Below, piece by piece: positions 615 through 58,000 of a DNA stretch of 64,000 bases. This DNA comes from Mesostigma viride (lineage: Eukaryota > Streptophyta > Mesostigmatophyceae > Mesostigmatales > Mesostigmataceae): the NCBI GenBank assembly GCA_009746045.1, contig RPFO01000082.1, positions 2,038,841 to 2,102,840 on the forward strand, given 5' to 3'. Position 1 is the stretch's first letter, and every line of letters starts with the position of its first letter. The position numbers and the translations under genes are program-made. Under the pieces are notes generated by a model. That model saw only the letters and a program-made list of their open reading frames with translations, was not told where the DNA came from and did not search any database.

Positions 615-24112
<23,498 letters not shown>

Positions 24113-25702: not shown

Positions 25703-25855
25703 CAGGTGCCCTTGGTGCACCTAGAGCAAGTGTCCTGTACATCCCCACCCTTGCAGGAAGTAGCCCAGAATGTATTAAAAGCCATATGCTCCTTCTCCGG
25801 GATATGAGCTACATATACTCCCAACGGAGTTATGTTCCTAATTAATTCATACAAC
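25703..25855 (+). mobile_element. Retroposon family A copy
   Basis: Contains ggtgcacctagagcaagtg, cccttgcaggaagtagccca and actcccaacggagttatgtt, ending in an aattaatt tail. It lies just beyond the stop codon of the minus-strand membrane gene, so it may be in that gene's 3' UTR. Confidence 0.7.
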
Positions 25856-25873
25856 TGCAAACTCACTCCTCCC

Positions 25874-28800
25874 TTACGCGCCCGCCGCCACGATGTACCA
25901 GATGAGGTACTCGGACACCCTGAGGGGCATCAGCAGGATGTTGAGCGGGAAGCCGAGCGTGAACCCAGAGCGCACCTGCTGCCAGAAGCCCAGCGCGGCC
26001 AGCAGGGAGCACACGCCCAGGAAGATGGGGGAGCTCTCGTTCACGTCCGAGACGCCATCGCCGTCCAGGTCGATGACCTTTCCCCTCCGCGCAAAATAGC
26101 CCAGCAACCCCGCGGTGAACACGAACCCACCGCGCATGGCCGAGTGGAACGCGGAGATGTAGCGTTGGATGATGTGGGCAAAGCTCACGCCGACGAGCTG
26201 TGTGGCAGATGATGATGACGGTGGGGGGGCACACGCCAGGTGGCACGGGCGGCACCGATCATTGGGGCAGGGTGAGGTGGTAAAGGCAACAATTGCAATT
26301 CAGTAGTCAGATCGATGCAAAATTCTGAAACGTGCAGTATAATGCCCAATAATTGGTTTTGCCAGGCTGGCCAGGCTGTCAATCTTTTCACATTGCCCTC
26401 ATGTGGAATTGGCTGATGAGGGGAAAGGGCACAGGAGGGAGCAGCACGCGTGGGAGACCGCCGAACGCATCCTCGGCCGCGCCATGTCCCCTCCCAAGGA
26501 ATGAGCACAGCCGCAATCGCCCAAACAGTCTGCCTGTAGAGAAAAGAGGAATCAGCCTGCATTCGCAAAGGCAGCAGCCTCGCGCTCCAGTTTCAACGGT
26601 CATGAATCATCTCCCTCGTGTATCAAATCACCACGTGGTTCAAAATGTCAGCAAACATGTCATCGACAAACCACCCCCCTGTGGTGGAGTGCCGGGGCGA
26701 CTTGCGGAGGAAGACGACGCTGGACCCCGCGGCCCCCGTTCCAAATCCCGCCCACCCACATGTCTGCCTGGGAAGTGGCGATGCCAACACTCTGTGGGAT
26801 CACACTGGTCGCCCTTGTTGAAAAGGAGTAGAGGTTTTCTTGTTGGAATACAGGCTAGGCAGATGTTGGAGAGGAACACAGGCTAGCCGACGTACCGAGA
26901 GCGCTTCCCCAGTTCAGGTAAGGTGAAACCCTTGGCAAGGTTCATGGCCTACGGCCTGCTGTGCTCATGGCTTACTGGCAACGGTTGGCGTACGAGCAGC
27001 GGTTGTGGCACCCAGTGTGCGCCAAGCCACGGGGGGATAGGGCCAAAGGGCGGGCAAGTACCACGGAGGATGGCGCAGGGGGGAGGGAACAGCGGACGGC
27101 TCGCGCCCCACCCACCTTGCACGCGTACTGCAGGCACATGCCCCACCCACCTTGCACGCGTACTGCAGGCACATGCCCCACCCACCTTGCACGCGTACTG
27201 CAGGCTGGGCACCACCCACCTTGCACGCGTACTGCAGGCTGGGCACCACCCACCTTGCACGCGTACTGCAGGCTGGGCACCACCCACCTTGCACGCGTAC
27301 TGCAGGCACATGCCCCACCCACCTTGCACGCGTACTGCAGGCTGGGCACCACCCACCTTGCACGCGTACTGCAGGCTGGGCACCACCCACCTTGCACGCG
27401 TACTGCAGGCACATGCCCCACCCACCTTGCACGCGTACTGCAGGCACATGCCCCACCCACCTTGCACGCGTACTGCAGGCACATGCCCCACCCACCTTGC
27501 ACGCGTACTGCAGGCACATGCCCCACCCACCTTGCACGCGTGCTGCAGGCTGGGCACCACCCACCTTGCACGCGTACTGCAGGCACATGCCCCACCCACC
27601 TTGCACGCGTACTGCAGGCACATGCCCCACCCACCTTGCACGCGTACTGCAGGCACATGCCCCACCCACCTTGCACGCGTACTGCAGGCACATGCCCCAC
27701 CCACCTTGCACGCGTACTGCAGGCACATGCCCCACCCACCTTGCACGCGTACTGCAGGCACATGCCCCACCCACCTTGCACGCGTACTGCAGGCACATGC
27801 CCCACCCACCTTGCACGCGTACTGCAGGCACATGCCCCACCCACCTTGCACGCGTACTGCAGGCACATGCCCCACCCACCTTGCACGCGTACTGCAGGCT
27901 GGGCACCACCCACCTTGCACGCGTACTGCAGGCACATGCCCCACCCACCTTGCACGCGTACTGCAGGCTGGGCACCACCCACCTTGCACGCGTACTGCAG
28001 GCTGGGCACCACCCACCTTGCACGCGTACTGCAGGCTGGGCACCACCCACCTTGCACGCGTACTGCAGGCACATGCCCCACCCACCTTGCACGCGTACTG
28101 CAGGCACATGCCCCACCCACCTTGCACGCGTACTGCAGGCACATGCCCCACCCACCTTGCACGCGTACTGCAGGCACATGCCCCACCCACCTTGCACGCG
28201 TACTGCAGGCACATGCCCCACCCACCTTGCACGCGTACTGCAGGCACATGCCCCACCCACCTTGCACGCGTACTGCAGGCACATGCCCCACCCACCTTGC
28301 ACGCGTACTGCAGGCTGGGCACCACCCACTTGCGATACTCGCGGGGAACAATCTCGCTCAGTGCGGGCACGAGCACGCGGTACAGCAGGCGGTAGAGAAC
28401 GTCCCCGATCGCCACGCCCAGTGCGACCGTGCGCGCAAACTCGATGCGGAGCGTGGCGACGGCCGCCATCAGGCCTGCGCGCGGGGTGGGGTGGGCATCG
28501 GGTGCCATGGGGGGGAAAGGGGGAACAAGCACACAGTACTATCGACCGCTTCAAACAGGCTTAAACAACTAGAGGTTTGCAGTGGGAGGGGGCTTGGGGA
28601 TTGGAGTGCTTGCCTTGAAGAGCCATAGGGTTTCTGTGGGTGTGGGGGGGGTGGAGAAGGGGGCGGCCAATGCAAGCGTTCAGGGTTGCCAAGCTTCACA
28701 ACACATCAAGGCTGGGCGGCATGGCAGCGGTAGGACCGAGTGCTTGCGCCAGATGTAAGCATTAATGCGAAGCGTTGGCAACCCTGGCGTGCCCTTGAGT

Positions 28801-30235
28801 AAGCATGTTGGGTGCACCTCCCACCGCAGCACACCTCGTGCACAGCTAATGGCATGATATCCTGGGCCCACTTCCGAGAGTGACCCAGCCTTCATGGAGC
28901 ATGGACGGGACCGCCAGATAGGAGCATGTGGCAAGCCGCGCAGGCGTGTGCGCATGTGGCAGCGGCCAACGTTCACGAACCCCTGCGCTACATTCACAGG
29001 CAAACTATGAAGCAACGTGTATATGAAGGAGGTAGACAGATATGTGCATGTGTGGCAGTGGTCAAGCCCCACGTACCCACGTAGATGCTGGCCGACGCCT
29101 CAGTGACCACGTTGGGGTCCACCGCCTTTAACGCCACCAGCAGCTTGCGCTGAACGAGCTCCGGGGCCGACAGCACCTTCACGTCTTGCACGCCATCCTT
29201 GTTGGCATCCACTTTGTCGTCCTTGTCGGAGGCCTCCTTGGCCACTTTGAAGCTCTTCCTGCGAGGTCGTGGGACAGGCAAACACAAGGACATACGACTT
29301 TGATGAGTCATCAATAACACCAATAATAGCGATTAATATATTATTAGGAGTAAATGGGGTCCTCTAGTCTCGAGAGCAGTTTGGACCGCTCTTGAGGAGT
29401 AGTTTCTAGTGGGGAGAGCAGTTCGTATGTGGCTGGCTATGGTCAGGGGGGGGGCTATTACTGGCATACGGGAATGCATTTCCCAACCAATGGAGTCCAT
29501 GCCTCGAAAATCTCCCACCTTCATGACGTCCATGCACGTAGTCATGGACGGCACCGGGCCAAACGCACATGTGGGAAAGAGGGAGGAATGCAACGCCCCC
29601 AGAGAATGACATGGGTCGAAAGGGATACGGGAAGAGATCCATACAACAGCCATGGCAAACCTGAGAGCGACTACATGCAAGATTCCACGCCACCGTCTTG
29701 TGACACATCCCAAAGGCACTCTAAGCACTGACCGCAATTGGGCAACATAATACATCGGACAGCAGAAAACGGGGGGGCAGACCTTGATGCTGTTACAGTA
29801 TTGCAAAATAACACCGCGCGCATGGTGGTGCTCAAATGAGTATCCTAAAGTGAAAGTGAACGATCGGGGCGGGCGGAGGGGTGCAATGAGCTAGAGGGTG
29901 TCAATGCTTGGTTTGCCTCACCATAGGTCCACGAAGCAATGCTTCGTCGTGCTCCAGGACGATATCCGATAAGCTTCAATTGCGGCGATGGTGAACAGGA
30001 AATGCCCTCCAAAGAAGATGAGGATGAGCCCAAAGATCATGGGCAAGAACTCCTCTGGATGGTATGGCTCCAGAATCGTGTAGCCTTTCTCTGCTGCGTT
30101 CCAACATGCTGAGACGACGGGTATGGCGTAGCTCACTGCCTTCCCGATAGCTAGAATCAAAGGGGCAGCTTTCTGCAGGTAAGGCTGTATAGTACTCGGC
30201 AAGACAATCGATCGAGACGAAGATCGGCTCGCCAT
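25874..30235 (-). CDS. Multi-pass membrane protein with EF-hand-type calcium loop, four exons
   Basis: Exons (minus strand): 30235-29922, 29258-29077, 28474-28296, 26197-25874. Phases agree at all junctions, giving 332 residues. Start context is atcATGgcg. Hydrophobic segments are at about residues 25-44 and 63-85 (EEFLPMIFGLILIFFGGHFL), 175-215 and in the last exon (SSPIFLGVCSLLAALGFW; LNILLMPLRVSEYLIWYIV). Residues 268-279 (DLDGDGVSDVNE) form a complete EF-hand loop; an earlier DANKDGVQDVKV (exon 2) lacks the final acidic residue. I recall similar unnamed membrane proteins in algae and stramenopiles, with a YHPEE motif before a membrane span, but know no function. The exon 3 end is placed after YRKWVVPSLQYACK because this joins smoothly to LVGVSFAHIIQRYISAFHSA. 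Intron 3 begins with the 34/35-bp minisatellite. Confidence 0.75.
27109..28325 (-). repeat. 34/35-bp minisatellite made of an exon-end plus 5' splice site
   Basis: About 35 head-to-tail units in two forms: 35 bp (plus-strand cacatgccccacccaccttg + cacgcgtactgcagg) and 34 bp (ctgggcaccacccaccttgc + acgcgtactgcagg). Roughly 25 are of the long form and 11 of the short, in mixed order. On the minus strand every unit reads cctgcagTACGCGTGCAAG|gtgggtgg, the last codons of exon 3 (YACK) followed by its donor site. The array starts inside exon 3 (28325-28296 is coding) and fills the first half of intron 3. It has no stop codon in any of six frames. Confidence 0.92.
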
Positions 30236-30951
30236 GATGGCACAAACACTTCTATGAACTTCAGGAACAAGGTAAGCAGCAAATCCCTTCTACCTGACAA
30301 ATCCCTTCCACGCTAGCTCAATTGTAGACAATAAAAACCAAGTTTCACTCAATGGTTGCAGACAGTTTACTATATAACATAAAGCCGGGGAAAAACACAA
30401 GTCTGACGATGCAAGTTACGCTGCCGGTATGCCCCCATAGCCCTGATTTGGCCAGCACTACACTGTGAATTTTTTTTGGTACGATACTGAGGTGGAGACC
30501 TGGTGGAGATATTTATGATGTGCGAGGATCTCTCGACGCTGAAGCGGTGGAAGTGTCATGAAAACACCACAACGTGCCATGAGTCAGAGAATCTGCATCA
30601 GTATCTTTTTCCAGTGAGATCTTGGCCTGCAACTCAAGAATCGAATTGTACCGTATTTCAACGAGACTTGACCGTACATCACGTTTACTATATGACACGA
30701 CTTTCCGCGGCTTTTACGTTGCAAACATGAACATTCCAACGCGAATACGCGCACAATTCTGGAAATTGGATCACAGAGAGAAGACTGTGAAAAATTGATT
30801 GGGGAATAATATGGAAAGCTTCTTTTTTGCGTCGAGGATCTAATCGAGACGATTCAAGGATCGATAGTTTGGCGATGATTTCAAAACTCATTTAATTAGT
30901 GAAGGATATCACTCAGAGCCAATTGCTGCTTTCGCTGTCGCACTTTACAAC
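30236..30951. promoter_or_regulatory. Head-to-head intergenic region, probable shared promoter region
   Basis: 716 bp separate the start codons of the minus-strand membrane gene (30235) and the plus-strand acyltransferase (30952). The DNA is AT-richer than the exons around it. No TATA box or other element can be assigned with confidence; the call rests only on the divergent arrangement. Confidence 0.4.
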
Positions 30952-33900
30952 ATGGCCAAGGGCCTCCAGCAGAATGGGGACAAGGCCACGGGGGAAACTG
31001 GCCAAAGTCCACCCGCTGAAGACAGTAACAAGAAGTCCGTAAATGACGCGAATCGATTTTTGGACAGCAAAGAGTGGGAAAAGTTCCGCCCATTCATCAG
31101 GACCGACGATTTCGGGATGGTTGGTTTGAGCCCGATCGACTGGAAGGTCCGCATGAAGTTAGCGTTTGGGGCTATCATCTTGCTTCCAATTCGGATAGTG
31201 TTGACGCTGCTGTGCGTGATTCTCTATTTCATAACTTGCCGCTTAATTTGGGCAAGCCGTGTCTTCTCGAAGGCAAACACCAAGGAGAGTTACTGCAATC
31301 ACAATGACGGCAGCCTTAATTTATCCCGATGGCAGCAACAAATGATGGCGTCCACCGGCCGATTTTTCTGTCGAACGGTACTTTTCATCATGGGGTTTTA
31401 CTACATCAAGAAGACAACGACGGCTCCCAAACAAGCAACCGCTGGGAAGCCGTTTGCTCCCTACATGGCTGTAGTTTCCAATCACGTGTCGTATCTGGAC
31501 ATCCTCTACCACATGTCTGACAGCTTTCCCAGCTTCGTCGCCAAGGTACGTGGCAAGGTTGCAACGGGAAACGCAGCATTTGAATCCGTAGGTATCCGTA
31601 GCTTCTATTCAAATGACGGCGGTTATTTTGAGGCCGGCTGGCGGCATGCGTGCCTCTTCCTCAAATGTCTCTAACCTGACAACTTCGATGAGTGCAAAAC
31701 TTAAACACTGATGTTCGGGAAAGACTTATCCAACGGCCGCAGCCTTTGTCTGCTAAGATATGAAACTTTCGGGGGTGCCTATCACGCAAGGCTGCAACCT
31801 TCCGCCCTCGTCTGGTCATGATGACGTGCAGAATTGCCGGCGCATGTGCATGCGTAGTGGCATCAAGTCAGCTCAGATAAACGGACCATGTTATGGTTTC
31901 TGTTTCTATTGAAACGTACTTTTTCCTGTTTTGCTCTAGCATTATTCATGTCAAGCATGCCGTGCATAGCAGCTGTTACTTGGCTTGTGCTTCCTCGCCA
32001 ACATTTTTTCAAATTAGTTCGAAATGCTTACCACATCATTTCTTCCTGAGAAAGCGACAGTCAGATGGTTCATCTCAACCAGACGTCCCGTGAGAAAGGA
32101 CAAAAACATCTGGTGCCCATGCTGACGGCCTAATGCCCATTCCTGTGCCGTGGCTTCCTCGCGGCGGCTGGCTCCTTTCTCCGTGTTCTCTTTTCTCTTT
32201 GCGGTCACTCTTCGGTACTTCTCTTCTGTTTGTACGCAGGCGTCAGTGCGCAAGATCCCCATGATTGGCTTTGTCAGGTGAGGCCGTAACTGCTGCGGGA
32301 CTTGATGAGGTGGGGTAGTATCTGCTGTGTGGCTTTGTCAGGTGGGGTAGTAATCCCTGCGTGGCTTCATTAGCTAAGCATGGCGGTGTTAACTCTCTTT
32401 TGGCTTCGTCAGATACGTGCGGCGGTAGCTCCCATGCGGCTTCATCAGGTGATGTGGAATGGTTATCTCAGGTATGTGAGTAGTGGCAGCTCGTTGGTCG
32501 CGGTATGGCAGTACGGTAGCCACGCGGTCGTACCTGGCTGTGGCTGAGCTTGTAGCAACCACAGATGAGCGGCCGTTGTACCTGGGTTGTGATGAACGGA
32601 TGAATCGTGATGTGGTCATCGAGTTGGCACCGGCTTCTGTAGGGTGTTATGGCTTCATTGCCCTCCAGCTGAGCTTGCAGGAATCCCCTGTGATGGGATG
32701 AGAAAGGACTTTTTTTTCTTAAAGGAGAGCCTTTGGCGAGCATAGCGCTGCGTGGGTTGCTGCTTTATTTGCTCGACAAGGGGGAGTTCAAAGGGGAAAA
32801 TGAAGCTATGCTGGAATCCACCGATTTTCCAGCCATGGATAATGCCATTGATTTGTACTTTTCTTGGCTTGGCTCATATGGAGTGCATTTGCTGCGCTGG
32901 CTGCCTGGGGCCTTGGGATCATGGCGATAGTCCCCAGTGCCTTCTTTTAGTGGATAGCATTCCTGCACCTAGGAGGGGGGGGGCTTGTATGGTAAAAGTA
33001 AAGCATCCCTAGTCGAGTGAAACGCCTAAACGCCTGCCTACTTTGATTGCAGCCCTGGCCATGAGTGGAGAAGTTCCGACTGCGCAGTGGGAATAGTGGT
33101 TTGTTACCGTCTTTCTTATTATAATATGTGCAGATTTTAAGCTGGGGAATGGCAGCTGGGGGTCAGGGTCACAAAATGTGCTGACATACTCATCGCTCTC
33201 CTGCGCCCCCTTCCTCCCCCTCCCATCTTTTCCTCCTACCATGCTCCCCCCCTCGCCCCACCCACCCACCCACCCCCTGTCGATTCCGTTCTCCTTTTCT
33301 TGCCATCCTAATCTTCCCCCCTGATGTGTTCCCTTCCCCCAGCGCCTGCATGGGCTGCATCTACGTGCAACGGGAGAGTGGCAGCGGCGGCGTGTCTGGT
33401 ACGTGGGCATGTGGTGATTCTCCCGATTTCTGGCCTGCGCTGGTTGTCTCTTTGATGTGCGTGTGCTGCTCAGTGAGATGGGGCCAGGGGGGAACCAGGT
33501 GTGCTACCCAGTGAGGGGGAGTTTTGAGTTTGGAAAACAGATAGTGAGGGATACTATTCAAAAGGCTCTATAGTGGGGGAAGATTTACCACGATAACAGC
33601 CGTTCTTTTTGTATTTAAAAGGTCATTGTAAAAGGGTAACCGGCCCATACGAGTTGGGCCTGGTTCGGTGCGGCTCCTGCGCCGTATGGCAAGGCTATAT
33701 GTTGTCAAGCTTGCGTGTGCCACATCATGGTGGCACTATACATTGCGTGTGCCACATCATGACTGTCACAGCCTTGCGGTGCAGAGGCAGAGCGTGATGC
33801 TGTGGCACAAGTTTTCACAGGTTGGTGGCTCTGGGATGGGCCTGCGGTGGACTTGGCTCTATCGTATGGCAGGATGCAAGAGGCAGCGGTGGTATGAACA

Positions 33901-36625
33901 CGCTATCATCTTGGCACATGTGTCAGACATCACATCAGAATGGCCAGGTGTACTATGCCTTGGGTCTGTTTTTCTTTATTGGGATGCAGGTGGGCTGACC
34001 TGCAAAATGCTGCAAGTCCTTCCAGTACCCAACTTGAGTGGGGGGGCTTTTGGGTAGCCTGCGTGCATGCGTCCTCTATCCGTGTGGTTACTTTTTGCAA
34101 GCTCGATATTAGTTGATATGAGTACAACTCCTTTGAATCACATGGTCATTGGCAGGTGCCTGCTCTCCCCCGCCTTGCCCGCTGCCCGGCCACCATCGTA
34201 CTCACCCACCACGGAAGGCACTCCTGCAGTCTCTCGCGTGCTGATTTGCTGGTTGTGTGCTGAGCGGTGATTTTTTGATACCATAGCCCATAACATCCGT
34301 GTGCGGTCTCTCATGCGCGCTTGGCTACACAACCTTCGTAGTGGCACTTTCACAAATACTTTGGTCTGCCTTGAAAGCATTTTGCATTGCGCCGTGGCTG
34401 CTGCTCCCTATCTTATGCCATCTTCCTTGCCCCCTCGGTGTGTGGGCCTCCTCGGTGATACTGGGCCCCTGCAGACATCGTTCGCAAGCGGCTAGACTTC
34501 CGCCGCGACAACTACGAGGACTGCCCGCCCCTGCTGGTGTTCCCAGGTGTGCGCCTCGAGTGCCGGGGATGCCACAGCCGCCCCTTGTAATCACAGCTGG
34601 GCATATCCCATTACATTCGTACTACGCTGTCTAAGATTTGATAGACAGCCAGCTTGGAGATGTGTTGTTTGCGTGACGAGGGTACAAACAGGCTGGTCCT
34701 CAGGGCCCTAGACTCTGCATTCTAATTCCAGCCTCTTTTCTTGGTTGCCCCATTTCCCATCCTCCCCACTCGGCATGCCTTTTTCCGTTAATCCTGGGCG
34801 GCGGGTCGTCCTCTTGGACGCCACCCACCTGGAAACGCGTTCCATCTGCCAGAGGGCACCACGACCAACGGCGAGTTTCTGCTGCCATTCCGCTCGGGCG
34901 TGTTCCGAGGCGGCCACCCCGTGCGGCCCATCTTGCTGCACTACCGCTGGGCACACTTCAGCCCCGCGTACGAGAGCATCTACACGGTGCGTGCCTCTAC
35001 GGCCTCCCAAGGGGGTGGCTTCCGAGGACATTGCTTGTATTATTTTGCTCGGGATGCAATCGTGTCTGGGAGGATGGGTGGCAGGGGGGGCAACTCCAGG
35101 CAGCACATGGGGGTGGAGTCCGCAGCCATGCACGCGATTTCCAGTCGCTGGCTGTAACGGCCTATGCATCGTCTCTTGCCAGTGCCGCTACTGTGGCGTC
35201 GAGGTACTGGGGCCTTTATTGCTTTTGATCACAGCTGCATCAGATCCTAGCGGGGTCCCATTCAGACTGGATGAGGAGATCCCCCATCGCGTCCTAACGT
35301 TGAATGCTGAATCCATAACAGCTGTTGAGTGTAAAGCTGGCTCTGGATCTCTCCTAGCGCACCCTACTATGTCGTACTTACAGTGGCCCCTGGCATCCGT
35401 ACCTGTTGGCAGGCCGTATCTATCCCCATGTAATCATCCCGGATTACATGCTCTGCGTCGCCAAGCGGCTGTTGCGCAGGCACAAAGTGACGGCTCACCA
35501 CCTCCTTAGCCTGCTGGTGGCCGCCACACCTCATGTCCTCATGAGTGTCGTCCGCTCACTGTCCTTAGTTGCTGCACTCTCTCACTGTCCTTGCCTCTTC
35601 TTACCTTCTCTTCCTTACTCAGCTCGTCGCACGCCTCCTCCCTTGTCCCCCCCGTCCTCGTGCATCTCCCCTCGCCTGCCTCCCCTCCTTGTATTCGTCT
35701 CCGGGCATTCCTGCCCTTGCTTGCCTCCCCAGGGCCGCCACATCTTCCTGCTGCTGTGCCAGCTGTACAACACGCTCGAGGTGCAGGAGCTGCCGGTGTA
35801 CGAACCGCCCATGACGGCGCTCGAGGACCCGGTGGGCTACGCGGGCGCCGTTCGGTCCAGCATGGCGCTCGCGGTGCGTGGGATGGCGTGGGACAGCGTG
35901 GGACAGCGTGGAACAGCATGGGGAAGCGTGGGGGAGCGCGGGAAACTGGGAAACCGTTGCACATTACGTGTAGGGGGGGGGGCTGCACTTCTGGTAAAAA
36001 TAGGCGCATGCTTCAAAGGAAATGTAGGGCTGTGTCATGTGCTGCATTGTCTCCTCTGTGTCTTACCGCGTGGGCTGTTCTTTAAAGGAATGATGTCGTT
36101 CTTTATCGTCCTAATAAATTGTGGAAGGCGTCTAGAGTCGGAGACTTTTGTATCTCCTTATTGATGTAGGTCCCTCGTCGAGCATGTGCCAAGTATATTA
36201 ATTCGCTGCTCTGCTTCATCCCTTTTTCATGTTTGACATGTGATAGTACTTAGCAATGGAAGATGAACGGCAGGCTGCCTTCAAAGTCTTGCGTGAGTGG
36301 AGGTTCAGCATATCCTTGGATGGCATATAAGGGCCCGCCGTTTTGTGTGATAGCGTAATGATGTCTGGTATTGTCGACGCAAGCAACAAATAGTAAACAA
36401 ATATTGGTATGCTTGTAGTTGCCTTTCTGCTTCTCTCCCCCTCTGCACCTTGCTTGTTTCCCTTTCCCTTTCCCTTCTCCCCTCCCCCCCTCTTCACTGA
36501 TTACCCATTTTTCTTTACTATTTGCACAGGGCGGGCTCATCCTTTCTGACGCGACTTTGGAAGACAAGCGCGCATTCCATGCCAAGTACCGGCAAGCCAC
36601 ACAGCCGCACATCAAGAAAGACTAG
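30952..36625 (+). CDS. Lysophospholipid acyltransferase, LPCAT/LPEAT type, seven exons
   Basis: Exons: 30952-31545, 32240-32277, 33343-33398, 34475-34546, 34853-34986, 35733-35873, 36530-36625; every phase matches and the product is 376 residues. Such enzymes transfer a fatty acyl group from acyl-CoA to a lysophospholipid at the ER membrane. Visible motifs: a membrane segment at about residues 69-99, the catalytic NHxxxxD box (NHVSYLD, 177-183, His and Asp both present), a second-block-like IPMIGFVSACMGCIYVQRES (205-224), and motif III FPEGTTTNG (252-260) followed by FRSGVF and PVRPILLHY. The C-terminus has HIFLLLCQLYNTLEVQELPV, typical of this family. It is shorter than animal LPCAT1/2 (over 500 residues) and lacks their EF-hands and a C-terminal KKxx-type signal (it ends HIKKD). 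Plant LPEAT-like enzymes are the closest alternative. The exact substrate cannot be read from the sequence. Confidence 0.88.
32265..32472 (+). repeat. Degenerate ~32-39-bp tandem repeat of an exon end plus 5' splice site
   Basis: The end of acyltransferase exon 2 with its donor (tggctttgtcag|gtgagg) is the first unit. Further units begin at about 32298, 32330, 32362, 32401 and 32437. Unit 32330 repeats tggctttgtcaggtg exactly and unit 32298 shares ggtggggtagta with it; the others are more diverged (tggcttcattag, tggcttcgtcag, cggcttcatcag). Confidence 0.75.
35874..35945 (+). repeat. Short ~10-bp tandem repeat at the start of acyltransferase intron 6
   Basis: Directly after the donor gcg|gtgcgtggga come several near-copies of cgtgggacag / cgtggaacag / catggggaag. 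The unit resembles the donor region itself, but it is too short and simple to be sure. Confidence 0.55.
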
Positions 36626-46032: not shown

Positions 46033-49000
46033 ATGGCGCACAGTCCACGCCCATTCCGGCAATGGGCCATACTGCTGTGTGTGAAAGCCTGCCTCTTGCT
46101 GCCGTCGCTTCTGGCAACGATCGATGGCATACAGGCTGCGCTAGCTTCATGCCCATGCGAGGTTTGCCCATGTTATTGTCCATGCACAGACCGGCGGGAG
46201 ATGCATCTAGCTTTCGTCCAGAACTACAATTTAAATGCCATTCAGCTAGATGACTCACAGAGCCGAACGGGTTTTCAGCTTTCCAGTGGTGCGCATCAAG
46301 CCGCTCGAGATAGAGGCTTGCAGTTGGGATATTATCAGCATTTTAAGGTATGGCCGCCTCCTTACATCTTGTGTAGCTATAGCATTCCGTTGCTGTAATT
46401 GACCAGATTATTTCGAAGGAAGCTATGCCATGTTCAAACCTTACTTACACGCCTACCGACCTTTACCCATGTGCAACCATGGGGCGGAATCGTGCAGTCG
46501 GAGGACGCCCGGAGTCTTCTGCGACATGTGCTTCAAGGGGAGTTGGTGGATGCGATCATAACAACATTGTACAATGACATGGTAAGTGAATGAAATTGCC
46601 CACCTGGTCGCCAGGTGTCAGGAACGGCGTCTAACGAATGCGGATCACAATTTTACGATAATGATAATAACCGTCGTTAGCCAAATAAACAGTCCCGCAC
46701 CACCTGCCCCCAGGTATACCAAAATACACATTTCATAGATTGGGCGTCTGGCGCGTACGGTCTCGGCGAGGCCCGTGGTTTCCAAAGTTGCCATTCCCAT
46801 TCTGGCCTGTACAAAGCCACGCCGCCGTTCCCACGCAACCTGTTACCGCAGTGGTCAGAATCACCTTGCGACAAATGCTTTGCGAATCGACCTCACAGAC
46901 TGCTATCCATGGCCTTTGTTTCAGGTTGCAAAGTTCAAGTGTTGCCGCGCTGTGCCCGGTGTGCGCCCTGCCGGGCTTTCACAGTTCACAGGCCCAACCA
47001 AGCCTTGGCCTTGGCGCCTCGGCTAGCGAATGCGTCACACCACAATTTTTGCGCCAGTTGCACACGAATTCATAATTTCAAAGCGTAAGCTTCAAAAGCC
47101 CATACAGGAAATATGCACGTTGTCGTGGCCGGCAATGTCAATGCAATCATGCAAGACCGCAATATTATTGACCGCACCCCCGAGCAGGTGGAAGCCGTGT
47201 GCTTGGGTTCACCTTGGGTGATGATGCCGAGAAACCCACTGTGGAAGGTTGAGGAGCTAGTTGCTGCACATTGCCTAGGTTTCTTATGCGACATCCTGAC
47301 ATGCCCGTGTGCCGGTCTCTACAATCCAGCTCGGCTGCGGGTGTTTGTGGTCAGCATAGTCCTTCACTTTGTGGCAGCCTTCTGGTTGAGTACCTTGGGC
47401 AGAAGGCCATGCTTTGCATGCATGTTTGGCTTTTACACTAGAGATATCAAAGAGACAACCAGCGCAGGCCAGAAATGTGGAATAGTCCGGACCTTGGTAG
47501 CTCGACCCTGCTGTTATCTTATCCGCGTTTGTCGAGTCATTCAGGATGATGGAAATTAGTGGAGGTGAAGATGTGTAGCCGCGGACATTAAAACATATGG
47601 CAGGCTAACGTTCATCGAGACCTAGACGGTGTAGGTAACAACAACCTCACATGATCAAGGCAGTTGTTCCTAGCAGCCAGGAGTGTCCAGTTGTAAGCAC
47701 CACTGCTGCGATTGCCTTCCCGCCATTGAGTACAAAGAGGATTTATCATGGAAGAGGACTGCAACAAGAGCTGATGCTTGCGTTTGTTTGCAAATAATAT
47801 AGTCATGAATAATTTTTATGAAGTACATGTTAGTGCCGGTAACTTGGTAGCACCGCTGGGGTTTGCCAACTGAATCCTTCATGGATGCCTGTGAACCTTA
47901 GAGCGCCATACACTCAGTTGTTAGGTCAGCAGATAATCATTTTATGTCACTCATTGCACTTGGTGATTGATAGATCAGTGCTACACTGGTGATTGATTTA
48001 TTACGTCACTTACATACTTGATTGCATGGGGTGGGGCCAGGGGTTATAGCTGGGCAACTCCCAGCTAAACCCCCAACCAATGAGCATGCCAGTTGACCCC
48101 TTCATTGGATCTGGGTAGTTGGCTCAACTAGGTAGACAAGTGCTTTACTCGTCATGTTCCACAATGAGTTGACCCGCACGCAAACCTAAAGATTTGCTTT
48201 CCTTTTGGTTCGCAAACTTGGACGTCCACCTTATTTGGGGGCCACGTAAGCATTTGTGGCAAAGTGAACTTGACCACTCGGGTACCACCTGCATCCCGCC
48301 CTGTTCCGTGCTTCATCCCTAGGCTTTGCCCAGTTCTACTTCCATCCATGTAGTTCTATCCATCTAGTTCTATCCATCTACTTCCATCCATCTAGTTCTA
48401 TCCATCTAGTGCTATCCATCTACTTCCATCCATCTAGTTCTATCCATCTAGTTCTATCCATCTAGTTCCATCCATCTAGTTCCATCCATCTAGTTCTATC
48501 CATCCAGTTTTCATTGCTTCTCACTGTTCCAGCTGTCCTCCAATATTGATGCACATATGCGGTCAATCTGTCTGCACCCCACTCCCTCCCGCCCGCCCGC
48601 CTGCTGTGTGCCCATCAATCCGCGCATGGACATAACCCCCCATGTTGGCGCACCCCCCACACCCCTGGGGCACGCAGTTCATGGAACCCCTGCTGGCGGC
48701 CATCGGCCAGCACATCCCCGTCTACGTGGTGGGCACCACCCACGGGCTGCAGCTTGGCAAGCTGCGCCGTGCCGCGAGCGGCGCTGACTCGGCCGGGCTG
48801 ATTCAGCCCACCTTGGTCAATGTAGGCATCATGGAGGAGACACTGTCCTCCCAGCTGGCGTCACGCCTGCTGGCTCGCGGCTTCCAGCGCGTGGACTGCA
48901 TCTACAGCAACGACCAGAACGTCGCGTTCCGCGAGCGATGCCGGGCGGTAGCGCAAGCATTCCGCGACGCGGGCAAGGCGGGCAAGTCCCACGTGAACAC

Positions 49001-52000
49001 GCGCGCGTTTGTGCCCATGGTGATTGCCCTCTCTGCCCTCGCCGAGGAGATCGACGCGTCTGAGAACCCTCTGGCTGCGAACGAGACGGCGCTCATCCTC
49101 ATGGACACTGTCATGTACTCGATCGTCAAGGAGGTCAAGCAGGGGAAGGGCGTGCTCGTGGACAGCCACGTCGTTGTGTTTGAGTCGAGCGTGGAGATAC
49201 TCACCGACATACGCAACGGCGCGCCCGTCACGTTCATCGACCAGCACACGTACTCGCAGGGGTACGCCGCGGTCGCCCTGGCCGCGTACGAGCTGCAGAC
49301 GGGGGAGGCGCTCGCCGCAGACGTCTCGCCCACGCCACGGTTTTATTCGGCGGGGATGGTGCGTGTTGCAGAATGTGTCTTTTTTGTTCGGCGGGGATGT
49401 GGGTAAAGGCAGTTTTTTATTGGAGTCCCGTGAATGGGTTCATGCGCCACAAAGCCACCAGACTAGTGTTGTAGCACCTAGAGTGCGCTCGAGTTGCGTT
49501 GTCAGTACGTAGCTGCGTGCCATGCATGAAGGCGTGTCACAAGCGTTGTACCAACCTTCTCCAATAAATGGGTGCACGATTCAGCTGTGCTTATCTAAAC
49601 CACGGCCTGTGCCTGGGCACTCCCTGGCCCCCTCCCCTCCACCACCACCACCACCACAGGTCACGGCAGAGGACATTGCGCGCGAGGTGTGCCGCCAAGA
49701 AGGGTTCCCCGTGTGCGGCAACCCCGGGGTGCTTGATGTGTCCCCCAAGGGCTGCCCCTGCTTCAACCGGTCCAGCGTGCTGACCAAGGTCATCTCCACG
49801 CTGCCCATCGTTGCCGAGCCCCAGAAGGCGGTGCTCGCAGGGATGGAGGACGCCATGCTCGACTTCCCGGGGACGAGCTATGAGTGGTACGTGCATCCTG
49901 ACCGTGAACGCGAATCATTTAAAGCAAAATAACAGACCATACCCGAGGGGTACTCGGATGATGGACGTATTGAACTTAAGTACATCGGGTATGTGATGAT
50001 GTGTAGGGTGATGGCTGAGGCAATGTAATTGGATTGCAGGGGGGTAGCGTGTGATTGCAGGGGTGTGCTCTCTGGGCGTCACCCACATTTACGAAGGGCT
50101 GAGTATCCCCAGGCACGTGTGGTTTGCGGGTTGGTGGACGGCTCCTGGCTCCAAGCACGCATGTGTTAAGTAGTAAATTGCCTGCATGTCGTGTTCATGA
50201 TGCCATGGAGCATTTTCCTGGTTCACGGGTTGGGATGGAAGTGAGCAGGTCTACCATCGCTCGCTGCCCAAGCGGGCCATGGTCAGATGCCCAGTCATCA
50301 GAGGGGTTGGCTGCCAAAACGGATGCACCACCACAGCGTTGCCTGGAGCATGCCGGCGGCACCACCAGCGGTAACAGTGGGCCCTCGCCCAGCCAAGTTG
50401 GATGGATGAGTGTTTGGATCATATATGGGCTCGCTCCTTGGCCTGAGGATGTTCAGCCGGGCGTTCCCATAGTTTACTTGAAGCAGGCAGAGTGTCCATG
50501 CGAAATGCCAGTTTTCCAGGCGAAAAACTTCTGCTGTATCAACCCCGAGGTTAACGGACTACTCCCTGTGAGGGACCTTGGACAAATGCATGTCGTTGGG
50601 GCCGGCCGTGTTAGTATCGTCCCAGCAGATACACACCTTGGTGGGCAGCGGCAATGACCTCAGTAGCATTCACTGGTAGGCTACTGGTCCGCTATCTTCC
50701 TCCCTTACCGGTGTGTGTTGGGGGCGGCTCTGCCCTTGATGCCCGGGATGATAGTAAAAAAGGACTTGGGAACTGTCTTGATTGACGACCTATGTGATCA
50801 TCACGTCACCTGTTTCAAACCATGTCGTGGGCCTGGCCTGGCCTGACTCCTTTGTGAGGGGCACAGAAGTGGGGGTGTTGCCTTGACGTTGGATGGCCTC
50901 TTCTGAGGTTGAAACAAATGTACAGTAATGGGAAAACCGGGACCTGCCCCAAATCAGGGGGGCGGGTGGCTGAGATTAGCTAACAGACTGAGGTCAACGT
51001 GCCAAGTATGGACCTTTCAAGCTCCTTCCCGATTTGCAGGAGGGGTCTAACGTCCCTCCTCCCTCTAGCATCAGATGTTGCCACGGACCGGCCCTGCTCG
51101 CCTACCCAGCCCCCCCTGGTCCATCTGCCCTTAGCGGCTCCTTTTGCTTCCTGTCTAGTATCGGAGGTGTCACACCATCCGCTGCTGTTAGAAACGTGAA
51201 ACGCTTGCGGGCGAAATGAGTTGCCATGCTGTAGGGTGCTGCCTGGGCTGAATAACCAGCCAACTTGCTTACCCTGCGGTTTTCCTCTCGGCTGGGCTGG
51301 GCTGGGCAACGGGTGGGGTTGTGGGGGGGGTGGATGGGGGGGATGGGGGGATGGGGGGGAGGTTGTGGGGGGGGGGGATGGGTGGTACTAAACGCAGGAA
51401 CCTCATCCCCGACGTGGGCGTGTCCACCGTCTACTCCACCAGCGACACGTATGCGGCGGTGCGCCAGGGCAACTGGACGAACGCGGTCCATCTGGACCAC
51501 TTTTTGGCGCAGGTCGACCCCAAGCTCATGGAGGCTATGCGCGTGCTGGGTGCCGCCAAACGCAATCGCACCTACTGGCTGACGACCGACCGCGACAGCG
51601 ACCACCAGAGCATTTCCCAGTTCCTGGCTCGCTTCAATGCCGACGGGTTCATGGGCCCCTCCCCGCAGGCGTGGCCCACTGCGGGGTCGTACATCCGGTC
51701 CAGCCTGCAGGGGCCTCGAGAGATGGTGCTCATGTACGTGCCGCTCCCGTACCTGCCCAAGTGGGGCTCCATGGTGCGCGGGTTCATCGACGGCTTCTTC
51801 ATCAACAGTGTCACGTACCCGGCCGGGTTCTGGGATTTCCCCGTCAAGGGCGATGTTGTCAACCGCACGGGCGTCTGGTCGGTCTTCCACGACGACTGGC
51901 GCGCGCCGGGGGACATCGGGGGGGGCGTGTCGGTCGGGCAGGTGGCCCCCTATAGCGGCCCGACGCTCTTGAACCGGCTGGCCCCGCCCTCATTCTCGGA

Positions 52001-55000
52001 CCGCGCGCCCTTTGTGCAAGGGCTGCGCGCGGTCCTGGAGGCGAGCGCGAACGCGAGCGAGACGTGCGACACGCTGGTCGTGCTGCCCACGCTCTCGGCC
52101 GACGTCCCCTTGGCGCTCGCGCAGCTGGAGCAGGTGGGCATGCACGGAAACCAGGGGCGGCCCACGCGGCTGCTGAGCTTGATCTGCGGGAGCAATGACT
52201 ACCGGGCGTTCGGGTACCCAGGCGGGCTCGAGGGCGGCGCCAGGCATGGCGCCTGCGTGGAGTGGCAGGTAAGGAGAGGCACCAAGCGGCAGGTAAGTCG
52301 TGGCATGGAGTGGCAAGCAAGGAGGGGCACCAAGTGGCAGGTAAGGGGTGGCGTGGAGTGGCAGGCAGGGAGTGGCGTGAACGGGCAGGTTTGACGCGCG
52401 CCGATGATTTGTTCAAAATGTTGACACCATGTGGTACAAATCCCTGATATACTGTCGTCTAGTGTACGTACTACACTTCTGTCTGCCTTCTAATGTGTAC
52501 TTCATAATTTTCTGGTAGGCACCGATTGTCGCATCCCCTTTCTTCTCCCGCGCACACGTCCCACCCAACAAGTCTTTTGCAGCTGTGTGGAGCCTTTTGT
52601 GGTCTTGGGCTCCCTTTCGCCTGTGGATCACGTGCCCTGCCGGCGGTGCATGGGTCATGCAGCTCCCTTCCCCGCTTCCCCGTCCAAGGGTATCACGGGG
52701 GCGGGTATCCATATTGCCCACCCATTACTCGGCTCTTTTTTGTCTCGGCATTCCAAAACCCCCAGGGCCGGATTGGCCCACGCGACGTACAAATGCTCGC
52801 ATCGTGGAACCTGGACCTGGGTCGTGTTTCCAAGGTTTGTCGAAACTGTGATTCAAAGCGTGAGCCCTCAGTAAGCCTTTTGAGGCCCCTGAAACCGTCG
52901 ACTCATGGCCACATACCCCGATTATGATGCTGCATCTCACCCCACCCCACCCCACCGCTTGCCTTCCTTCCTGCCTGCCCGCCCGCCCGCCCGCCCGCCC
53001 GCCCGCCCGCCCGCCCGCCCGCCCGCCCGCCCGCCCGCCCGCCGCCCGCCCGCCCGCCCGCCCGTTCACCCGCCCACCCGCCCGCCCGCCCGCCCGCCCG
53101 CCTGCCCGCCTGCCTGCCTGCCCTCCTGCCGTCCTGTGTGCCCAAACCCACCCCCCTCCCCCCAGTTCCGGCTGGTGGCGTACATGGCACACATGGCTGG
53201 CGTGCTGGAGCGCGGCACGCAAGGCGAGCGCCTATTTGGCAACGAGCTGGCGAGCGAGCGTCTTATGACGCGCACCGCGTTCCCGCCCGCGCGCATGAAG
53301 CGGCGGGCCGACTGCGGCCTCTACGAGACTCTGACCGCGCCGCGCCCGCTCGGGACCGCCGCGCACGGGTACCCCTACGCGCACCCCGTGTGCAACTACG
53401 AGCGCGGCTGCGGGAACGCGAGCCTGCCGTGCTCGGGGCGTGGCGTGTGCAAGTTCCCCTCGGCGGCCGAGAACAGCAAGTCAGGCGGCGTGCTGGACGC
53501 GCGCTTCGGCTGGTGCGTGTGCCACGAGGGGTGGGCGGGCGCGCTGTGCGAAAAGCCCGCGGACGACAGCCCCCGCTTCCAGCGCTGGGTGATCATCGCG
53601 GGCAGCCTCGTGGTCATCCTGCTCTCCTCGCTGCTCCTGTTCGTGATGTGCAAGAAGCTGCGCGCTGTCTCGAAAGCGCAGCTCAAGAAGAGGGAGGTGA
53701 CCGCGAGAAAGCGGCGCCCGCCGGCCAAGGGGCAGCCCGTAGCGGTCGTTTTCACGGACGTGAGTGTGTGTGGGCAGGGGAAACGAGCCGGTGGGCAAGT
53801 AGGCATGGGCAGGAGTGGGTGAGGGAGGAGAGAATGGCTGATGAAGTAGGCGTGGGTGAGATAGGGAACAAGTAGACATGGGCATGAATGGGGGAGGGGG
53901 AAGAGAGACAACTTGCAAAGTAGACAGTGGCTTGAGTGTCAATATCTACATAGCATGGACCGAGTGTCAAATGATTTGACTTCAGCATATTCGGGTAGAC
54001 ATGTGTGTCATGGCGTGTGGGGAAGCAACTAGGGCATGATCAGGGTTGGGAAACATGGGAAGCATAGACAGGAGGAGTCAGTGGCCGGGAGTAGAGAATA
54101 AAGCCATGGGTGTAGGGGTTGGGAACATGGGAAGAGTAGACAGGAGACAGGAGTCAGTGGCGGGGAGTAAAGAATAAAGCCATGGGTGTAGGGGTTGGGA
54201 ATATTGATGAATAGACATGGGTGTTGGTGGTCAGGAGTAGAGAACTAAGCAATTGGTGTAGGGGTTGGGAATATTGATGAATAGACATGGGTGTTGGTGG
54301 TCAGGAGTAGAGAACTAAGCAATTGGTGTAGGGGTTGGGAATATTGATGAATAGGCACCAACGTGGGTGGGAATGAATAAAAGCGTCTTTATGGGTGTTC
54401 ATAGAAAGAAGCAAAAGAACAGTCACGGGTGTCATTGGCAACCGAATGCTGAGTAAATGACAGTGTGCAGGATAGTCCAGTCTCGCCTTGACACGGCTGT
54501 TTGTGAATGGCACAAGTGATTGTTTGATTTATCGATCCCCACGTGGCTTGCGTTCATGCCTCCATTAGGGACCGTTGGGTTTCGTGGCTCCATTAGGGGC
54601 CCATTGGGTTTCATGCCTCCATTAGGGACCATCGCGCTTTGTGCCTCCATTTGGGGCCCATGGAGCTCATAGTGTGTTGCAAACTGTATGCAAAAGGGAA
54701 GGGTGGGAGGCAAGGGGGGGGCCGCCGCCCATCCTCTATCGCGTAAATGGGGCTGGCTATTGCACGTCCACCCCGCAAAGGCTGACCTCCGGACCTTTTG
54801 TGTGGGTTGCATGCGTGCCTGCATCGGTACCGGGTCCCCCTGTGGCCCCTGCAGATCGAAGGCTCCACCAACCTGTGGGAGTGGGACCCTGAGATCATGA
54901 ACCATTGCCTGCAGATACACCACCGGGTAAGGGCTTGGCCACAGGATGCAGTGGGAACGTTGTGGCATGGGGAGTGCGGTGGCATTCCGCTACCCATGGA

Positions 55001-58000
55001 CCATGTATGCATCCACAGAAGAAACCCCACTTATGCTTGCATGCGGGGTGGTGGGCGGCTGGGCGCAGTGGGGCACCTGGAGGCGCAGTGGCAATCGCCA
55101 TCCCACGAGCCCATCTCCTTTCCTGGTAGGCCTGCATACTCTACCCGCGTGGCGGTCTTAAGGTGGAGGGAATCTGGCAGTTTCGAGTGGCGGTCCGAGT
55201 CGTATGATAAGGTGCAGGTTTCCTATCGTGCTCTGCCACCTTGCACAACAAGTTTCTACCCTGATAGCGTGCTTGCAAGACCGCATGTGGAATAGCAGTG
55301 GCACCGCGATGTGGGATAGCAGCTAGGGTTGATCGTGTGCTCTGTACGCATGAATTGCCGCTGATGCAGCCAGCGTACGTTCTCTGATTCCTGGTTCAGG
55401 TCGCCTCCAGGTGCCCTGCGCTGCTTCCCCACGTGTGCGCTGACGCGTGCGGCCGCTTTCTCTTCTCCTCCCCCTATTTTTCCCGCTTCCCTCCCTCCCC
55501 CCCTGCCAGGTGCTGCGCGTGCTCCTCTCCAAGCACCACGGCTACGAATCCAACACAGAGGGTGACGCGTTTGAGGTCGTCTTCCACGACGCGAGCGACG
55601 CACTGCTCTGGGTGCTGGACGCCCAGATGGCGCTGCTCTACCCGGAGGAGCTCCTGCGGCCCACCAAGAATGGGTCCGCGCGCACGAGCTGGCCCGAGAA
55701 GCTGCTCCTTCACCCACTGGGATGCGAGGTCCGCGACGACGACGGCTGCATCCTCTACCGCGGCCTGCGCGTGCGCATGGGCATCCACGTGGGCGTTCCT
55801 GAGAACACCTACCAGCACCCGAACGGGCGCCAGCGGTACCTGGGCGAGGCCATGGACGTCGCCAAGGCGATCGGCGACGCACCCTCCCAGGGCGGCCAGG
55901 TGCTCATGTCCATGGACGCGTGGGCCGCGCTTGAGACGTCCTCGGGCCAGCTGGGCGACCTCCCCATCGTGGTCCACAACATGGGCGAGCACATACTGGG
56001 AAAAGACATGCCACCGATGCAGCTGATGGAGGTGCTCCCGCAGGCGCTCCATCGGCGGGCCCCCTTTGAGGCGATCCGGTCGCTGGAGCAGGTCACGCCG
56101 TCCTTCTTTGACGCGCCGGGGAGCCGCTCGTACGTCAACGACGAAGCCCCCGTGGACTACGTGGCCATTATGTTCACGTTCGTGGGGGGCGTCTCACGGC
56201 TCAAGCGCAGCCCCTATTTCCCCGCGGCCATCAATGTGCTGACCGGGTTTGTGCGTGACCGGCTGCGCAAGCACCATGGGTACGAGTGCGAGGAGAAGGA
56301 CGGGAACTTCCTGCTGGCGTTCGCGGATGCCATGGACGCGGCGCTGTTCAGCCAGGAGCTGCAGGTGGACGCGATGGACCTGCCCTGGCCGCAGGGTCTG
56401 TTGGAGAACGATGCAGCGGCCGAGGTGCCCCTCTTGCCGCTCCAGGTGACCAGCGCGGAGTGCGACGTGTCGCCGCTCGAGGGCCGTGTGCGGTGCCCGG
56501 ATGCTGGTGGCCGGTACCTGTTCCGGTGAGCGCCCCCTTCTAGTGTCCATTTTCTACAGCATCCATTGTGAGCCTGTTTCCGGCAGCGTCCTGTTTGTGC
56601 CTGTTTCTGTCCTTGCCCCTTGTGTGTGCCCTTCTGGCGAGCGTCTGCGTGCTTGACCCTTTGGGGATGAGCGCCTGCGTGCGTGCGCGTTCTGCAGGCT
56701 TCCTCTGCATACGCATGCTGCTGCTGCTTCTGTGGTCATGTGGTGCGGCATGATCCCCCCGCCCTTGCCTTTGGTGCATCCTTGGCACTTGCGTTGTGGG
56801 GCATCCCATGTGACCATGCGCTGGTCAAAGGCGACATGGTGGCCCAGGCAGAATTCGCAGGTCTATCGGTCACCGCTCTGTGCCCTCCGTTAAGCCTCTG
56901 CCCTCTCTTACGCCTAAATGGATGGCCTTCACGTAGTATTGGAACAGCAAGGTTTTCACATATGTCTAGTCACTGCAAGCTCGTGTGCCCGTGGCATGCA
57001 AGGGCTGTGCTAACGAACATCACACCCATCCTCTGCACGACCTGCCCCTCCCGCGTGCCACTGTCACGCTCGCCAGGGGGTTGCGCCTCAAGTGCGGCTG
57101 GTACTGGGGCATCCCCACGCGGTGCCTCCCCCACGCGAGCACCGGGCGGGCGTCCTATTTCGGACCGCTGATGAACCGCGCCGCCCGCATCGCCTCCGCA
57201 GCCGCAAACGGGCAGACGCTCTGCAACTCGGATGCGGTGGAGGCGCTGCAGGCAGCGATTGACGCTCTGGAACCAGACATCACCTTCACGCCGCTGGGCC
57301 GCTTCTCTCTCAAGGTAAGGCACTAGAAGGCATCGCCTTTGCTGATGCCGCTGGGGCGATCCTCATGGAAGCAAGAAAAGGCCGGCAGGCTCGAGCTACC
57401 ATGGTCCCGATTCTCCAGATTTCTGGTTGCGCCGCTTGCCTCATGGATAAGGCATGCATGTGGACTGTGGCGCACCCATGAACCCTTCGACTTCCCTGAA
57501 CAAGACATCACGCACATTCCTTAATTGTTTGGCCTCATATCTTCCTACTGCTTTCTTCTCGACGATGTCCCTCTGAACATCCGTATCTTGGGTGCAGGGC
57601 ATCTCCACGTCGCTCGAGCTGTCCGAGGTTAGCTGCTCGCGCACGCGTGGCCGCACGTTCCCGCGCCCTGCCCAGATGGCGCGCACCACCTCAAGCACGC
57701 CCGGCCAGATCCTCACCCGCCGCCTCTCGCAGACGGATGGCAACTGGACGCCGATGGAGACCAACCGCTTCCTCACGCGGCAGGAGACGATGATGTGGGG
57801 GGAGCAGGGGCCGCTGAGCGTGGGCGGCAGCACAGCCGGCGGTGACGGCATGCTCTCCTCGAGCAAGGACGACACGGGCAGCGCGTGCAGCAGCCGGCGG
57901 TCGAGCGTGAACTCGGATCACATGGTCCCGCATGCGGGGGATCTGGCGGTGCCCGGGACAGGCCGGTTCCGCCGCATGAGCACCAAGCAGAGCGCGCAGG

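Follow-up and report, generated by a model that had tools for sequence, protein, structure and literature searches.

The 5′ boundary of intron 3 in a membrane-protein gene of Mesostigma viride is repeated head to tail as a minisatellite of 35 units, each carrying the end of exon 3 and its donor. The gene lies on the minus strand of the window, the 64,000-nucleotide stretch of contig RPFO01000082.1 that was analyzed. Judged by its sequence organization, the array fits the structural definition of a mirage: (i) it spans an exon-intron boundary, with the first unit in exon 3 and the others in the intron, (ii) its unit of 34/35 bp falls in the reported mirage range, and (iii) it presents the splice signal AAG/GTGGGT (the slash marks the boundary) 35 times. 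The array is probably such a mirage, that is, a young and unstable exon-intron-boundary minisatellite that is near neutral, with the first donor mainly used.

The four exons of the membrane gene (Table 1) join into an intact open reading frame of 332 amino acids across GT-AG introns. This structure holds as proposed in the first-pass annotation of the window, and exons 1 and 2 agree exactly with the public model P0001. The spliced protein, used as query, is 95% identical to that model (jgi/Mesvir1/28145/Mv04712-RA.2, 561 aa) over 72% of its own length; in PhycoCosm, Mesostigma viride goes under the name Mesvir1 (PMC9164057). The protein has no match to a Pfam family. As a query, it retrieves 35 proteins besides P0001, 22 of which make up the homologue alignment, with P0035 lying outside it.

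Exon 3 ends in YACK/GTGGGTGG, and exon 4 resumes with LVG. All 22 aligned homologues cross this junction uninterrupted by an insert, W215 is invariant among them, and K214 is nearly so. This backing supports YACK-LVG as the real exon 3-4 junction, in agreement with the annotation. The latter had listed two findings that would speak against its own reading, namely homologues lacking the YACK-LVG junction, which is intact in 22/22, and an exon 3 end near 28326, which is disfavored because the KW...Y.CK stretch beyond 28326 is conserved coding sequence.

Table 1. Features of the membrane-protein gene and of the donor arrays, in window coordinates
Feature	Position	Strand	Description
Membrane gene exon 1	29922..30235	-	314 nt, from ATG; agrees exactly with the public Mesostigma model P0001
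Membrane gene exon 2	29077..29258	-	182 nt; matches P0001 exactly
Membrane gene exon 3	28296..28474	-	179 nt; end ...KWVVPSLQYACK; placed by the joined reading frame and the 22/22 aligned homologues crossing to exon 4
Membrane gene intron 3	26198..28295	-	2098 nt; donor G 28295
Membrane gene exon 4	25874..26197	-	324 nt including stop; begins LVGVSFAH
Array of 35 units plus partial unit	27105..28329	-	24 A (35 bp), 10 B (34 bp), one variant of B; exon 3 supplies the first unit
Sole full unit with a substitution	27531..27564	-	TACGCG to CACGCG; unit parse
Exon-internal GTGGGTGG in K-W-V-V codons	28322..28329	-	First-unit start, probable seed repeat
GTGGGTGG at intron 3 start	28288..28295	-	Presumed real donor
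Second case, LPEAT-like acyltransferase gene	32266..32367	+	Degenerate 32-bp array of exon-2 end and donor (TTTGTCAG/GTGAGG); looser copy 32438-32452
Third case, periplasmic-binding/cyclase gene	52255..52390	+	24/48-bp array of exon end and donor (TGGCAG/GTAAGG); P0157 splices at first donor 52269
Fourth case, periplasmic-binding/cyclase gene	49341..49399	+	Exon end TTTTRTTCGGCGGGGATG twice (17/18 nt identical), second copy intronic, 41 nt on; exon end 49358 fits P0157 exactly; donor 49359
10-bp G-rich array, LPEAT intron	35876..35943	+	Starts 2 nt inside the intron; donor itself not repeated

On the minus strand, CAAGGTGGGTGG occurs in 35 copies, comprising the exon 3 end and 34 intronic copies, the last of which places its donor at 27115. 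The approximately 35 donors of the annotation are thereby confirmed as the exon's own plus 34 in the intron. A unit parse likewise bears out its picture of exon end and donor repeated head to tail, the first unit (type B) being exon 3 sequence itself; the annotated range, 27109-28474, takes in the array and the whole of exon 3. From exon 3 inward, the units read BAAAAAAABBBABAAAAAAAAAbAAAABBABBBAA, followed by a partial unit; A stands for the 35-bp type, B for the 34-bp type, and b for a B carrying one substitution. TRF reports 27105-28315 with a period of 35, 34.9 copies, and 95% matches. The array occupies 1191 nt of intron 3 and the other 907 nt are non-repeat. The array is free of stops in all three minus-strand frames, and CCTGCAG is present in every full unit, both as the annotation had stated.

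A 26-mer of the unit, searched in the 440-Mb assembly with up to 2 mismatches, occurs at a minimum of 35 places (34 exact and one with one mismatch, repeat counts being lower bounds), all within the array. Since the unit was found at this locus only, it does not resemble a dispersed element, and a mobile or dispersed repeat or transposon was rejected. The near identity of the units, with one substitution among the full ones, points to either youth or homogenization. No RNA family reached its gathering score in 25800-30300, and a scan of 27000-28500 for bacterial promoters and terminators returned nothing. RNA fold z values are 0.95 for a single unit, -2.44 for the exon boundary piece, and -1.16 and -2.69 for three-unit arrays of A and B, respectively; tandem copies pair mutually, and no conclusion is drawn from these values.

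All 34 inner donors match the exon's donor for no fewer than 11 nt on the upstream and 8 nt on the downstream side. In nine of them the upstream match extends to 34 nt, and inner donor 12 combines this with 253 nt downstream (287 nt in all). The near sequence therefore cannot mark the first donor, and, if that donor is used, the choice must rest on its position or on signals that lie farther than 34 nt upstream. The offsets of the donors fall into frames 0, 1, and 2 in 12, 11, and 12 cases. Exon 4 would thus stay in frame from 12/35 donors, while the 12 frame-2 products would meet a stop within a few codons past the junction and the 11 frame-1 products would be stop-free to the end of exon 4. 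The annotation had also held that unit order decides which products stay in frame; this stands for the use of inner donors, which shifts the frame by unit order, and fails for the 12-nt microexon (TACGCGTGCAAG, encoding YACK), which is always in frame.

The rival reading that survives best is a splice-site lottery, in which many of the 35 donors are used to yield graded proteins with insertions between YACK and LVG, the set being tuned by copy number. The local near identity of the donors, the openness of the array in every frame, the dozen in-frame donors, and the appearance of array sequence within the public model P0001 are all compatible with it. It is nonetheless improbable, given that none of the 22 aligned homologues has an insert at the junction, that 23/35 donors are frame-shifting (12 of these leading to the early stop), and that repeated boundaries in amphioxus are reported, in PMC3087553 and PMC3902484, without disturbance of splicing. 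For a mirage spliced mainly from its first donor, the effect of the array on the protein is probably small.

The age of the intron is relevant to a second reading, namely that intron 3 was recently gained by tandem duplication of an AGGT segment. The distant homologue P0035 matches the membrane protein up to PDEYRKWAHPIVQY (...KWAHPIVQY) and then reads ILQVSIYIYIYIYIY. With KW as the reference point, its ILQ reaches as far as the K codon of YACK. The remainder, VSIYIYIY, is the expected phase-0 reading of CAG/GTAAGTATATATAT and resembles CAG/GTAAGTATATAT. Since the P0035 model seems to break off at the YACK codon, intron 3, as judged from this translation, is probably old, apparently sharing codon and phase with a counterpart in the distant homologue. 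DNA of homologues was sought in viral contigs, and none was found there. AAG/GT and CTGCAG both occur in the unit, and intron gain of this type is an established model according to PMC4974935. A recent gain is very unlikely all the same, as an intron apparently sits at this codon, in matching phase, in P0035, the 907 nt outside the array are non-repeat, and the acceptor CACACAG/C does not derive from the repeat.

P0001 runs through exons 1-3 and then through the array to a stop, intron 3 being unspliced in the model; this run-through may represent retention or a mere prediction fault. Its translation, decoded with A, B, and b, gives BAAAAAAABBBABAAAAAABABBBAA, or 26 units, with b and B indistinguishable at three places (8 equivalent solutions). 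When the two strings are compared by eye, P0001 has one contiguous 9-unit block fewer than the assembly's 35 units, and the A/B order agrees for the 19 units of one end and the 7 of the other. Retention of intron 3 in the assembly's gene would give 673 aa, as compared to 561 in P0001. The discrepancy (26 units against 35) may reflect different strains, haplotypes, or assemblies rather than within-strain instability. An assembly error in the array or its length, although suggested by the unequal copy number, is highly improbable in view of the A/B order common to both ends, and P0001 would be independent support for the array if it stems from another assembly.

Scarcely credible is recursive or microexon use, with CCTGCAG as an acceptor adding 12-nt in-frame YACK exons: the motif does precede a 12-nt, frame-keeping segment in every full unit, but the stretch ahead of it is G-rich and pyrimidine-poor (0.40-0.43, as compared to 0.52-0.95 at 15/16 examined acceptors, one being poorer still at 0.29, which weakens this argument), and adjacent units would leave “introns” of 22-23 nt, which is very short for an intron.

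For the favored reading, a boundary minisatellite of the mirage type, a four-step origin can be proposed. First, the conserved K-W-V codons (AAGTGGGTGG), which precede the donor AAG/GTGGGTGG by 34 nt, would have created an 8-11 bp direct repeat common to the exon end and the intron start, and slippage or unequal exchange between the repeats would have duplicated the intervening 34 nt to give type B. The exon-internal and donor copies of GTGGGTGG are indeed direct repeats 34 nt apart, and with their flanks they read CAAGTGGGTGG and CAAGGTGGGTGG. Second, an event with its breakpoint in the intron (GTGGGTGGGGC) and approximately four extra bases would have produced the 35-bp type A, after which both types may have spread through array turnover. 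The intron start GTGGGTGGGGC is present in type A and also in the sequence beyond the last full unit (GTGGGTGGGGCGCG), which suggests a second duplication with an intronic breakpoint. Third, the array may have changed in length, P0001 (26) and the assembly (35) being a 9-unit block apart. Fourth, the copies sit in what is probably an old intron and would mostly be removed by splicing from the first donor, leaving the array near neutral, while rare use of an inner donor would extend exon 3.

Smaller cases of the same kind are seen at three further donors in the window (Table 1). The acyltransferase junction, GFVS/ACMGCIYVQRES, is insert-free in 10/10 homologues, of which nine carry land-plant names (several LPEAT1) and one is unnamed. 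The joined exons of the cyclase gene match Mesvir1/28149/Mv04714-RA.2 at 100% over 78%, and the gene follows P0157 exactly from residue 37 over eight exons, the first 36 residues not being placed exactly. Public models treat such arrays differently: P0157 splices at the first donor, while P0001 runs through. The cyclase gene (46489-58446, plus strand) has periplasmic-binding, EGF-like, and class III cyclase matches; both EGF matches are below the Pfam cut-off, as is the periplasmic match in P0157. Another 27 Mesvir1 models match it, indicative of a sizeable receptor-cyclase-like family. Among 28 cyclase-family models screened for tandem peptides of the kind that read-through arrays would encode, one (P0178) has a short 11-residue repeat and none is array-like.

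A paralogue, P0163 (Mv04717), lies approximately 190 kb downstream and was mapped exactly over eight exons. At the start of its third intron the donor is likewise repeated in tandem, GGCAG/GTAAGGGG..., with a period of 49 and 2.1 copies (L027:5927-6029). This boundary corresponds to window position 52269 by sequence (VDWQ against VEWQ) and by order, and the two units are unrelated. The same boundary of the cyclase paralogues thus seems to have been hit twice, by different units. Two other sites were set aside. Site 12482 (plus strand) passed the first donor-copy scan and, owing to its apparently noncoding surroundings, was not counted as a donor; the segment CCGCCTAGTCCAGGTAGGCGACCCTCGCCGGTGA occurs there twice, 77 nt apart (12464-12580). 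Site 165696 (minus strand) of the extended sequence is without recognizable coding sequence.

Of the 11 arrays in 23 introns of the four genes, 4 overlie a donor and none an acceptor, where random placement expects 1.14 on donors (p 0.016); with the discovery case removed, the count is 3/10 with 0.77 expected (p 0.032). A gapped test of 16 introns finds copies scoring at least 16 at 4/16 donors, as compared to 0/240 cross-intron pairs, 0/540 exon-internal positions, 96/704 intron-internal positions (Fisher p 0.17), 94/1000 GGT sites (p 0.06), and 67/1310 genomic positions (p 0.008). Acceptors score at least 14 in 1/16 cases (donors, 5/16) and at least 16 in 0/16. Without the discovery case, the gapped test gives 3/15 donors against 119/2388 intron-internal positions (Fisher 0.037; one-per-intron permutation 0.0033), and an ungapped test of the 23 introns gives 3/22 against 35/925 internal GT (p 0.054) and 2/496 exon GT, with p at 0.13 under the loosest cut-off. 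The excess at donors relative to the rest of the intron is no more than suggestive, the thresholds having been set after the first cases, positions within an intron being non-independent, and two of the four genes being paralogues. The junctions of LPEAT introns 3-6 derive from tblastn homology with GT and AG picked by eye, and all others from exact public models or protein alignments.

The window together with 200 kb holds 83 non-overlapping arrays with periods of 12-120. The three with the strongest donor motifs are arrays at real donors, as are four of the first five, the fifth and sixth being tied at 4.6. Arrays scoring at least 4 number 7/83, as compared to 4.1 among shuffled units (reached in 8/100 shuffles), with 3 versus 1.6 at a score of at least 5 (26/100) and 2 versus 0.2 at a score of at least 7 (2/100). 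Taken as a whole, the arrays show no clear enrichment in donor motifs. Introns of the Mesostigma genome are generally rich in tandem repeats. A GCCC-type repeat at 52955-53130 directly precedes the acceptor at 53166 and makes the intron end C-rich; repeats therefore grow near intron 3′ ends as well, without covering the acceptor. The window also contains an array of the hexamer CCATCA at 969-1862 (894 bp, 149 copies, 98% matches) and one of the AT-rich pentamer ATAGT at 16032-16495 (93.6 copies).

To study how the spliceosome chooses among equal 5′ splice sites, artificial duplications are the usual means. The intron 3 array is a natural test of that choice, with 35 near-identical donors and a correct product known from homologues. 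There is a slim chance that Mesostigma repeatedly turns its 5′ intron boundaries into minisatellites, the largest of which would serve as a copy-number-tuned choice of 35 donors that places strain- or cell-specific in-frame insertions in the membrane protein. Mesostigma introns are the second longest among the species compared in PMC6947507, at 1141.9 bp, and the locus shows one way in which introns can lengthen in this long-intron species, by copying their own donors. The same paper reports PacBio isoform sequencing of strain NIES-296 with 10.5 million reads.

The closest known systems are the mirages of amphioxus. In PMC3087553 and PMC3902484, they are tandem copies of exon-intron boundaries in Adh3, the globins BflGb6 and BflGb9, TnC, and PGBD5. 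The first paper gives units of 10-72 (Adh3), 150-160, and 157 bp, and the two record a gene with 6 units in one haplotype and 3 in another, regular splicing being undisturbed. Mesostigma shares with them the minisatellite-like boundary copies, the splice signals within these, and possibly the variation in length. It differs in being a streptophyte alga with 35 near-identical copies of a 5′ boundary, and, while both boundaries are affected in amphioxus, its arrays lie on four donors and no acceptor of the 23 introns examined. No minisatellite-like boundary array in plants or algae is among the literature matches listed, and the Mesostigma case would extend the mirage type to a green alga, with many near-identical donors. 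Internal tandem repeats of duplicated human genes, as PMC2812944 describes them, likewise consist of approximately 30-bp units at such boundaries, differ in copy number, and can alter splicing; they form novel introns or remain exonic with RNA support, whereas the Mesostigma intron appears old and is known from DNA. In a potato case from PMC4974935, a tandem duplication over an intron-exon boundary also supplies splice signals in a plant, but there a single duplication makes a new intron, while in Mesostigma the donor of an existing intron is multiplied many times.
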